57,232 nucleotides of DNA, taken from assembly GCA_019695265.1 (NCBI GenBank), contig JAIBAJ010000009.1, positions 1 to 57,232 on the forward strand, in the 5' to 3' direction. Position 1 is the stretch's first letter. Each line of letters begins with the position of its first letter. Under the pieces are notes generated by a model, which saw only the letters and a program-made list of their open reading frames with translations, searched no databases and was not told the DNA's origin. Shown piece by piece: positions 1,597-47,602 of the stretch. Origin of the DNA: Bacteroidia bacterium (GTDB taxonomy: Bacteria > Bacteroidota > Bacteroidia > JAIBAJ01). The position numbers were made by a program, and so were the translations under genes.

Positions 1597-2152
1597 GTTG
1601 CTTATATCGAAGTTAATTGGTTAGAAATAAAGGGATTGGGTTAGAGTACTGAAAAATAAATTATCAAGCGAATAATTTAAATTAAAATACCTAGTATGCG
1701 GGCCCCCTCCGCCAAAAAACATTTTGCAAAATTCAAAACCACTTGCATGGCGTTCGGGTCACGCTATCGGCTGTAGTCCTCGTCCCCCTAGGCTATCGCC
1801 GTAGTGGTCCTGTGGGCTACTTGCCTCTATCGTTGCCCGAGGTGCAACCTCAACTTGTACTTTCTAATCCAAATTTTCGCTGTATCTATTAGCAAATGCA
1901 GGTTTGTAAAAGTCCAATTATTCTTCGGAATAGTTTGCCTAAACAATCTTTTTTTCGACACCGGCCACTGTGATAATAAAATTGTTTTGGACTAGTATTC
2001 AAATTGCATTGAAATAATTGTTCTTGGAAAAGGGAATAGTCCAAACCTGGGCATAACTGCTTTTCAGATTATGGCCTCATACCATCTGCATTTTTGATCT
2101 ATTCAGCAAACCTATGCAAAGGGAGATAATGGAAAAAGAGGAGATGAGATCC
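1597..2152. other. Intergenic region between convergent genes, contains repeat copy A
   Basis: No credible gene is present. Repeat copy A fills 1698-1853. The flanks (1597-1697 and 1854-2152) are AT-rich and show no hairpin terminator, tRNA or further repeat that I could recognise. Confidence 0.6.
1698..1853 (-). repeat. Structured intergenic repeat family 1, copy A
   Basis: Read on the minus strand it begins GAGGTTGCACCTC, which can itself form a small GAGG/CCTC hairpin. Then come CGGGC, A, ACG, ATAGA, GGC, AA, GTAG, a variable arm, CTAC, A, GCC, GATAG, CGT, GACC, a second arm with CGCCA/TGGCG at its base, and the closing GCCCG. CGGGC pairs with GCCCG and encloses everything. Its variable arm is nearly the same as that of copy D, including a GGC-GATA-GCC tip (GGC-GTTA-GCC in D). 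It lies between the convergent genes pyc and the ABC exporter. Confidence 0.85.
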
Positions 2153-10888: not shown

Positions 10889-11042
10889 GAACCCAGATTA
10901 TGCATAAGAAATGCATAAACTAGTTAAGAATTTGTAAATCAATTTGTTGTCTAAATGATGACAACTTCTATCCCGAAATGCTTCGGGAGGGTAAACCCAA
11001 CTAAATCAAATAGTTCGGATTTGGAATCCATCTATTGATTAA
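10889..11042 (+). repeat. Repeat family 2, copy a
   Basis: Begins AACCCAGATTA and ends CTATTGATTAA. It shares long near-identical blocks with 47453-47602: GAAATGCATAAAC, ATTTGTAAATCAATTTGTT, AACTAAATCAA and AGTTCGGATTTGGAATCC. Internal small hairpins include CCCGAA/TTCGGG and AACTA/TAGTT. The distal GGGTT end seen in the other two copies is missing here, where the tandem hairpins begin. Confidence 0.75.
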
Positions 11043-11123
11043 TACCGAATGGACATTATGTTTAGTCCAATTTTATGTATTAATTTTATTTGAAAAAATT
11101 GGCCTAACATTCTGTATCCTCGG
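11043..11123 (+). repeat. Family 3 hairpin unit 1
   Basis: An 81-bp unit from TACCGAATGGACA to GTATCCTCGG that is itself an imperfect inverted repeat of about 30-bp arms (AGTCCAATTTT near the tip on one arm, AAAATTGGCCT on the other). It is repeated almost exactly as unit 2, six bases further on. Confidence 0.75.
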
Positions 11124-11377: not shown

Positions 11378-11585
11378 GGGGTTTGCACCTCGGGCAACGA
11401 TAGAGGCAAGTAGCTCCAAGACATTCTTCGGGTAACAACTCAAAAATTTAAGTTAGCAATAACCCGAGTTACAAAAAAGAAGTTGGTAGGTCCCGGTCTT
11501 GGACTACAGCCGATAGCGTGACCTTTTTGCCATTGGCTAAGCTTTGTTTTTGTGCAGTATTGTTGTTGGCAAAAAGGGGCCCGCC
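11378..11585 (+). repeat. Structured intergenic repeat family 1, copy B (long arm)
   Basis: Starts GGGGTTTGCACCTCGGGC and ends GGGGCCCGCC, at 208 bp the longest copy. The conserved core is intact. The variable arm begins with a perfect TCCAAGAC/GTCTTGGA stem next to GTAG/CTAC and then carries extra sequence with its own TCGGGT/ACCCGA hairpin, as if lengthened internally. The second arm is CCTTTTTGCCA/TGGCAAAAAGG. It lies between the convergent OmpA-like and LOG-family genes. Confidence 0.88.
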
Positions 11586-22311: not shown

Positions 22312-22469
22312 GTTTAATTAATTATACGAAGTACAGGATATTTCATTGATGAATTTGTCTAGGTTTTAATTTTTATTACCAATAGTTTATTTAGATGTTT
22401 GTTTGTCAGTGTTTTATGGTGTTTTTTGGTGTTGTTTTCTCTTTTTTATTGCTTGATTTTTTTGTATTT

Positions 22470-22620
22470 GGGGGCCCCATTCGCCACAATCAATTTTGCT
22501 TGCCCCGGAATAGTTGAAGGCGAATGGCCGGGCTTTCGGCTGTAGTCTTAGCCTCCTTCGCTAAGGCGAAAGGAGGCTAAGAGCTACTTGCCTCTATCCC
22601 TGGCCCGGCGAAACCCCAAC
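22470..22620 (-). repeat. Structured intergenic repeat family 1, copy C
   Basis: On the minus strand it begins GGGGTTTCGCCGGGC. The inner stem is GGG/CCC where copies A, B, D, E and F have ACG/CGT. The variable arm is an almost perfect hairpin of 16 bp (TCTTAGCC... / ...GGCTAAGA, one bulged base, CTTA tip). The second arm is CCATTCGCC/GGCGAATGG and the closing stem GGGC/GCCC. It is the only copy placed between divergent genes. Confidence 0.87.
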
Positions 22621-24234: not shown

Positions 24235-24329
24235 AACCCAAATTAATCAATAGGAGGATTCCTAATCCGAACTACTTGATTTAGTAGGGTTTACCCCGAG
24301 TTAAGATTTTCTAATGGTTAATTTGGGTT
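24235..24329 (-). repeat. Repeat family 2, copy b (short form with inverted ends)
   Basis: 95 bp with terminal inverted repeats AACCCAAATTAAYCAWTAG (three mismatches at most). The minus strand carries the shared block CGGGGTAAACCC, CTAAATCAAGTAGTTCGGAT and AATCCTC found in copies a and c, but lacks their first half. The ends and size resemble a miniature inverted-repeat element. Confidence 0.72.
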
Positions 24330-24357: not shown

Positions 24358-24513
24358 GGGGTTGCACCTCGGGCAACGATTGAGGCAGGTAGCCCACAGG
24401 ACACCGACGGCGTTAGCCTAGGGGGACGAGGACTACAGCCGAAAGCGTGACCCGAACGCCATTAACTTGCAGATGGATGTTGCAGGAAATGGTGTTGGCG
24501 GAGGGGGCCCGCC
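24358..24513 (+). repeat. Structured intergenic repeat family 1, copy D
   Basis: Starts GGGGTTGCACCTCGGGC and ends GGGGGCCCGCC. The internal loop is ATTGA/GAAAG instead of ATAGA/GATAG, so an A.T pair has become T.A while the neighbouring G.A/A.G pair is kept. The variable arm is very close to copy A. The second arm pairs CGCCA/TGGCG at its base. Confidence 0.86.
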
Positions 24514-32380: not shown

Positions 32381-32933
32381 GGTCCATAGAAATTGGTAGT
32401 TGGGAGGTAGGTAGCGAATTTTTGAAAATGATCCCTTTTGTTGCGGTTTAAACTAAAAACTGCAATAGAATTCTATTACGGCTTTCAACTACGTCAAATA
32501 CAAGTATTCCAGAACAATTTTTGACTTCAAACTAGTTCATTATTTTTTCTCTACAAAATTAAGCTGAAACCCCTTTCTTTATTGTATTTGAAAGCCTGAT
32601 CACGATTTCTATTGCAGAATTAAGGTTTAATAGATACAAGGACAGGTTGAGATAAGCATATCAGTATGAGGTTGCGCCTCGGGCAACGATAGAGGCAAGT
32701 AGCTCCAAGCCAACGCAGCGTTTAGCGGAGTGGGCTTGGACTACAGCCGAAAGCGTGACCCGAACGCCCATGCAAGCATTATGGGGTTTAGCAAAAGTAG
32801 AGTAGGGCGAAGGGGGCCCGCATACTAAGAATAATAAAAATAAGTCAAAAGGGCAGGATGGACTTTCTCTGATTACCCAAAAAAGGGAAAAGCTGTTTTG
32901 TTCTTTACAGACAGAATTTATCGGGAAAATGGT
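32381..32933. other. Convergent intergenic region with repeat copy E
   Basis: Contains family 1 copy E at 32668-32821. I see nothing recognisable in 32381-32667 or 32822-32933; the plus-strand reading frame at 32898-33200 is antisense to a better gene. Confidence 0.6.
32668..32821 (+). repeat. Structured intergenic repeat family 1, copy E
   Basis: Starts GAGGTTGCGCCTCGGGC (GAGG/CCTC hairpin) and ends GGGGGCCCGC. The variable arm starts TCCAAGCC/GGCTTGGA; copy B has TCCAAGAC/GTCTTGGA, so a C.G pair is swapped for A.T. The second arm is CGCCC/GGGCG. The flanking bases AGTAT and ATACT could lengthen the closing stem. It lies between convergent genes. Confidence 0.88.
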
Positions 32934-38849: not shown

Positions 38850-38896
38850 AAAAAAGCTTGGAAATCATGGATTACACATGATTTCCAAGCTTTTTT
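38850..38896 (-). terminator. Strong terminator of the TPR-like protein gene
   Basis: A stem of about 18 bp (AAAAAGCTTGGAAATCATG / CATGATTTCCAAGCTTTTT) with a 7-nt loop and T tracts on both sides. It follows the stop codon of the gene at 38913-39683 by about 17 bp and lies 30 bp upstream of the acyl-CoA dehydrogenase start. Confidence 0.88.
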
Positions 38897-38912
38897 AATG
38901 TAATTTGTAAAT

Positions 38913-43083: not shown

Positions 43084-43110
43084 TTGGTAGTTTATTTTCT
43101 TGATTTTTAT

Positions 43111-43261
43111 GCGGGCCCCTTTTCGCCCTCTGATTTTCTGCAAAACCTAAGCTTGGTAGAAGGCGAAAAGGTCACGCTATCGCCCATAGTCTTCGGTCAG
43201 CTCCGTTAACACTGCGCTGGCCTTCGAGCTATTTGGCTCTATCGTTGCCCGACCGAACCCC
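43111..43261 (-). repeat. Structured intergenic repeat family 1, copy F
   Basis: The most informative copy. On the minus strand the conserved GGC...GCC stem is replaced by GCC...GGC, and GTAG...CTAC by ATAG...CTAT, all paired changes. The outer CGGGC/GCCCG and inner ACG/CGT stems, ATAGA/GATAG loop and GACC are kept. The second arm is a perfect 10-bp CCTTTTCGCC/GGCGAAAAGG. The variable arm has GG-C-CAGC/GCTG-A-CC pairing above a symmetrical GAA/GAA loop. Confidence 0.88.
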
Positions 43262-43353
43262 AAAGTTTATAAGAATTTCAAAAATTAGCGGTAATCAAAG
43301 TTGCTAATTTGGTATGAAATTCTATTAATTGTAAGGATTTTGCAGGAATGTTT

Positions 43354-43503
43354 GGGGTTGCAGTCCGGGTAGGGATAGAGGCAAGTAGCCCACAGGCACC
43401 CGCGGCGCTAGCTAAGGGTGGCGAGGACTACAGCCGATAGCCCGACCATTCGCCTTGCCATCATTCAGGATAGCACTTTGTTCGGTGGCGAATGGGACCC
43501 GCC
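43354..43503 (+). repeat. Structured intergenic repeat family 1, copy G
   Basis: Starts GGGGTTGCAGTCCGGGT. The outer stem is CGGGT (43366-43370) with ACCCG (43497-43501), against CGGGC/GCCCG elsewhere. The inner stem is GGG (43372-43374) with CCC (43441-43443). GGC 43380-43382 pairs with GCC 43433-43435, and GTAG 43385-43388 with CTAC 43428-43431. The second arm CCATTCGCC 43446-43454 pairs with GGCGAATGG 43487-43495. Confidence 0.89.
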
Positions 43504-47452: not shown

Positions 47453-47602
47453 AACCCAGATTACGAATTAGAAATGCATAAACGAGTTAAGGATTTGTAA
47501 ATCAATTTGTTTGTTCAAATTGATAACAACTTCTTACTCGGGGTAAGCCCAACTAAATCAAGAAGTTCGGATTTGGAATCCTCTTATTGATTAAATTGGG
47601 TT
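47453..47602 (+). repeat. Repeat family 2, copy c (full length)
   Basis: 150 bp from AACCCAGATTACG to TTAAATTGGGTT, whose ends are imperfect inverted repeats (AACCCA / TGGGTT plus several further bases). It matches copy a along its length and copy b in its second half. Confidence 0.77.

Follow-up and report, generated by a model that had tools for sequence, protein, structure and literature searches.

Studies on the short interspersed repeats of bacteria provide several systems for comparison. REP, BIME and REPIN sequences, which go with RAYT (TnpA_REP) proteins, are built on hairpins of 20-40 nt with an unpaired 5' GT[AG]G head, and a rayt gene is flanked by two inverted copies. In the Bacteroidota, the RAYT genes of subclass 2.6 are flanked by unusual structures, copies of which are found elsewhere in the genome (PMC6006769). 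The enterobacterial MITE-like repeats ERIC and RU-1/2/3 are about 100-170 bp long, intergenic and multi-copy. Here, we describe a repeat of the Bacteroidota in which the copies fold as a three-way junction and change their stems in matched pairs.

The window, meaning the whole stretch of 57,232 nt that was analysed, comes from a 213-contig draft genome of a Bacteroidia bacterium. Sequence and repeat search place one entire element, copy F, at 43110-43252 on the forward strand; the preliminary description had put it at 43111-43261, which overlaps this span but has the wrong boundaries. The fold, derived by RNAalifold and by pair counting on a named structure, consists of a closing stem P1, a hairpin P2 and a long arm P3. 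P1 joins the element ends in all types, most clearly in genus g45, and the outer boundary of the element is fuzzy in the window genome. In F its strands are CGGGC (43112-43116) and GCCCG (43247-43251), and 98.1% of P1 cells are paired over 54 copies. P2 has a variable loop and a stem that differs among copies, for example CCCATTCGCC/GGCGAATGG or CCTTTTCGCC/GGCGAAAAGG; F (43118-43171) has the latter, with CCTTTTCGCC at 43118-43127 pairing with GGCGAAAAGG at 43162-43171. P3 (43174-43245 in F) starts from ACG/CGT, located in F at 43174-43176 and 43243-43245, or from GGG/CCC, found in 18/54 copies. Next come TA/TA, stem B (GGC/GCC) and stem C (GTAGTCC/GGGCTAC); the arm continues with an internal loop, TCG/CTGT, that is conserved, and ends in a free apical hairpin. 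The arm is mismatched and its internal loops are invariant (...AGTCCTCG...CTGTGGGCT...), the mismatches C/T, TC/TC and T/TT being kept in nearly all copies. Two wobble pairs, T.G and G.T, hardly ever change, and the drawn strand has just 4 A.C cells in 54 copies, which suggests that the drawn strand is the one that folds. In many genera the P3 halves are near direct repeats (GGGCTATCCGCTGCAAGTCC and GGGCTTTCCGCTGCTATCCC), and the arm is near two-fold symmetric.

In F, stem B is formed by GCC (43182-43184) and GGC (43235-43237), and stem C by ATAG (43186-43189) and CTAT (43229-43232). The copy reads GCTATC-GCC-C-ATAG...CTAT-TT-GGC-TCTATC, against a family consensus of GCTATC-GGC-T-GTAG...CTAC-TT-GCC-TCTATC. 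The paired changes reported for these two adjacent stems are real, and both stems are kept fully paired. They amount to one pair in each stem, G-C to A-T in stem C and G-C to C-G in stem B, where the middle pair alone is altered and not two inverted G.C pairs as first described. The surrounding loop bases had also been called unchanged, but C stands in place of T at the single base between the stems, and divergence is also seen in the inner arm (TCT...CTTCGAG vs TCC...CTGTGGG in the consensus).

Pairing is conserved far beyond F. In 54 copies of the window genome, 94.7% of cells hold a standard pair, compared with 81.5% in shuffles and 37-44% in slid structures. Double-change cells number 145 vs 41 in shuffles, none of the 500 shuffles being as high, and they occur at 15/24 pairs. 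A census of 104 parsed copies includes about seven mis-registered rows of another length subtype and was drawn in part from similarity hits, so its change frequencies are not unbiased; in it, stem B has 16 two-sided changes that are still paired vs 3 one-sided changes, and stem C has 17 vs 0. The many one-sided, unpaired copies that would speak against selection for pairing are therefore not there. The expectation that GCC/GGC and ATAG/CTAT always occur together did not hold, since 13 parsed copies carry GCC/GGC, seven of them with GTAG, two with GTAC, two with ATAA, one with CTAG and only one with ATAG. ATAG/CTAT occurs once among the 104 copies, and the combination seen in F is unique; stems B and C vary independently. 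The seven copies with GCC/GGC and GTAG/CTAC, together with two that combine GCC/GGC with ATAA/TTAT, represent paired intermediates in the window genome. Because such intermediates exist, the changes in F need not have been simultaneous, contrary to the original proposal. The same description held that GTAG is base-paired here and free to change, and this is borne out by copies with GTAA, GTAC, ATAA, TTAC or CTAG and by most other genomes, where the position reads AAG/CTT. In this element GTAG is one paired segment like any other, not the head of a RAYT-type REP, as had been recognised.

The fold is also maintained across genera. The covariance model R1 found matches in 101/395 genomes of the class (E<=1e-4) and in 33/296 genomes of a draw from the phylum, two of them outside the class; as a partial negative control, 400 kb of genome G153 gave no match at E<=0.05. 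In alignment A3, whose 35 distinct rows come mostly from other genera, 94.1% of cells are paired vs 75.1% in shuffled and 28-57% in slid alignments, with 80 double-change cells vs 27 in shuffles. A-T to G-C changes and orientation swaps are seen in several helices, while the invariant T.G pairs persist. Selection for pairing is thus well supported by covariation, both within the window genome and between genera. A strict DNA pattern searched in GTDB r220 matched one named MAG alone, a Chitinophagaceae bacterium. In Rfam 15 no family scored above its gathering threshold, a match to MIR7723 lying far below its own. The open-access literature, searched by sequence strings and by topic, gave no description of the element, and the word 'Bacteroidetes' is absent from a stem-loop survey (PMC2267715). 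Judged from these two sources, the family appears uncatalogued. A blastn search for plasmid or phage carriage, with one Bacteroidota copy as query, found no match. In five genomes from three families (loci L093, L094, L096, L086 and L040), ORFs of a MetH-like cluster adjoin elements, and two of these loci also have a SAM riboswitch; the recurrence of such neighbours is possibly chance.

The repeat is abundant where it occurs. An nhmmer search of 433 kb of the window genome (the window plus 20 stretches) found 57 copies, or 1 per 7.6 kb, which extrapolates from this sample to about 500 in 3.83 Mb; the genomes compared with it are of the same class only. Copy number is high but patchy, with tens of copies in genome G381, one match in each of its five congeners and none in the 400 kb of G153. 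The repeat is about 145 nt long in the window genome, with a family range of about 95-160 nt, and nearly all copies are intergenic. Seven of the 57 lie in the window. The partner of F, a GGG/CCC subtype copy at 43365-43503 on the reverse strand, shares its convergent intergenic region in the orientation -> <-, and an inverted repeat without T-tract (GAATTTC..AAATTAGC / GCTAATTT..GAAATTC, 43270-43330) lies between the two. The repeat search placed others at 1697-1840 (+), 11390-11585 (-), 22469-22607 (+, between divergent genes), 24369-24513 (-) and 32679-32822 (-). In the copy at 11390-11585 the apical loop of P3 is longer by about 50 nt, and extra sequence of tens of nt is found there in L079 and L104 as well; the enlarged loop may be a place for cargo or insertions. 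A second repeat family is present in the window at 10989-11043, 24242-24296 and 47532-47602. At L038:5999-6126, a broken three-arm element runs into an A+T-rich hairpin (ACCAATTTTAATTTATAAA...) that is possibly related.

The core of the element behaves as a unit. In G381, 24 copies picked by their 3' flank alone have cores 99.0% identical vs 83.8% for the flank, and the identical part includes the apical loop, which varies freely between genomes. Three different P2 cassettes are attached to one P3 arm in this genome. Among 21 copies of one subtype in the window genome, identity is 90% in P3, 56% in the P2 arm and 33-38% in the flanks. In some orthologous gaps of g45 species, the element keeps its orientation while the subtype has switched and pairing is kept; in one such gap a third species has it in the opposite orientation. 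The core thus behaves as a module separate from its flanks, and the contrast between the two in G381 indicates that this module either spreads or undergoes homogenisation; taken together, the observations favour modular spreading or conversion of the core. Querying G381 with the joined flanks brought up no flank copy without the element, and no clean empty site with target duplication was seen, the candidate sites being blurred by diverged flanks. Four G381 contigs (C44, C22, C54 and C1) begin within or beside copies; the repeat probably breaks draft assemblies.

Several explanations other than a spreading element have to be weighed. Selection in place alone could conserve cores and accounts for the paired positions, but it is insufficient for the identical apical loop of the G381 copies. 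One form of it is a cis-acting RNA at gene 3' ends, such as a terminator, stabiliser or processing signal, in which the upstream gene's transcript would fold and the fold be selected at each site. Location speaks for it: F starts 26 nt past the stop codon of an amidohydrolase-family gene, facing its partner copy, and in the window genome 20/53 convergent gaps hold a copy vs 21/272 other gaps (odds ratio 7.2, p=1.3e-7), with 24/29 convergent-gap copies starting nearer the upstream gene (p=0.0005). However, in genus g45 the elements between co-directional genes favour neither strand (15 vs 13), and convergent gaps are little enriched for copies. The 3'-end location is therefore a feature of the lineage and does not define the element. 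Since no T-tract follows the full-element hairpins, they are not intrinsic terminators of the GC-rich-hairpin type; one weak 5-bp terminator-like match (43111-43126) is at background level. The genome has ordinary terminators, as a near-perfect bidirectional terminator-like hairpin at 38850-38897 (AAAAAAGCTTGGAAATCATG...CATGATTTCCAAGCTTTTTT) indicates, and element-bearing convergent gaps are not short of them (8/19 vs 4/13, p=0.71). The idea that the element replaces ordinary terminators was rejected, as no difference was seen. Homogenisation of cores between loci also argues against selection site by site, and we regard a cis-acting RNA as unlikely.

The best prior candidate for a mobiliser was RAYT subclass 2.6, with the element as an 'atypical' REP spread by that HUH enzyme. 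The flanking structures and dispersed copies of this subclass (PMC6006769) invite the comparison, and inverted pairs and high copy number are compatible with it. Nevertheless, 17 RAYT-like loci of the SNHVH/YIHxNP type have no element copy within about 2 kb, and the window genome has just two Y1_Tnp genes, both class-1-like, for about 500 copies, making this origin very improbable. A wider regex met copies at L126/L139 and L130 only, loci not classed as RAYT. An intact class-1-like TnpA gene of the window genome (L031, G000:C29:10039-13383) has the palindrome ATATGTGACCCCGATGGGGTCG many times on both sides, which from its sequence looks like the gene's own REP-type family. Among 624 neighbouring ORFs, no transposase or recombinase is seen repeatedly next to the element. 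Integron attC was set aside on inspection, as the ends lack the RYYYAAC...GTTRRRY arrangement. Matched changes could also be written without any selection on the fold, by template switching within the hairpin. Such quasi-palindrome correction makes simultaneous two-sided changes in palindromic DNA. It would, however, erase the mismatched internal loops C/T, TC/TC and T/TT, which are conserved, and it fits poorly with swaps in several helices beside persistent T.G pairs; we give it no more credence than an origin from subclass 2.6.

Our data lean towards a REP/BIME-like, non-autonomous element that a putative enzyme recognises in its folded, single-stranded form. Enzyme recognition of the folded strand, mobility in trans and any cell function are what we infer. 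These interspersed elements of the Bacteroidota fold as a three-way junction when single-stranded, and the fold would be the substrate of a trans-acting enzyme on single-stranded DNA (or RNA), either when copies spread or when they overwrite one another. If only fold-keeping variants can propagate, changes such as those in F would come in matched pairs. Between the convergent genes of this lineage, copies have accumulated face to face, like enterobacterial REP/BIME, possibly with a secondary benefit there in 3'-end protection or supercoil handling. A bolder and quite tentative version is that these three-way-junction repeats occur phylum-wide and that a putative folded-strand enzyme other than RAYT copies and homogenises them one arm at a time. 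P2 cassettes would then be interchangeable, and a P3 arm would sweep through every copy in a genome as the flanks go on diverging.

If the element does spread in this way, a phylum whose REP biology is little described would gain a widespread repeat family of elaborate structure, and compensatory evolution within one genome could expose the substrate of a putative mobilising enzyme. The homogenised core beside diverged flanks would make a measurable system for bacterial repeat spread or conversion. In addition, the unmasked repeat can mislead structured-RNA discovery and break assemblies.

Compared with known systems, the family is closest to REP, BIME and REPIN sequences, with which it shares extragenic hairpins in high copy (57 in 433 kb), inverted pairs, compensatory changes and no coding capacity. 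All seven same-gap pairs in the window genome are inverted and face each other, as in inverted REP/BIME doublets. It differs in being a three-way junction of ~95-160 nt, in lacking an unpaired GTAG head and in that no RAYT was found beside it. The structures next to TnpA_REP subclass 2.6 genes belong to the same phylum, also lack the GTAG consensus and have dispersed copies; identity with them is improbable, as the element is absent near the 17 such genes examined. ERIC and RU-1/2/3 resemble it in size, intergenic position and copy number, but they belong to an unrelated phylum. In the repeat described here, a junction is closed by the ends, which in some genera read TTTGGGCG...CGCAAA; its core evolves apart from its flanks, and no autonomous parent was found among the neighbouring ORFs.
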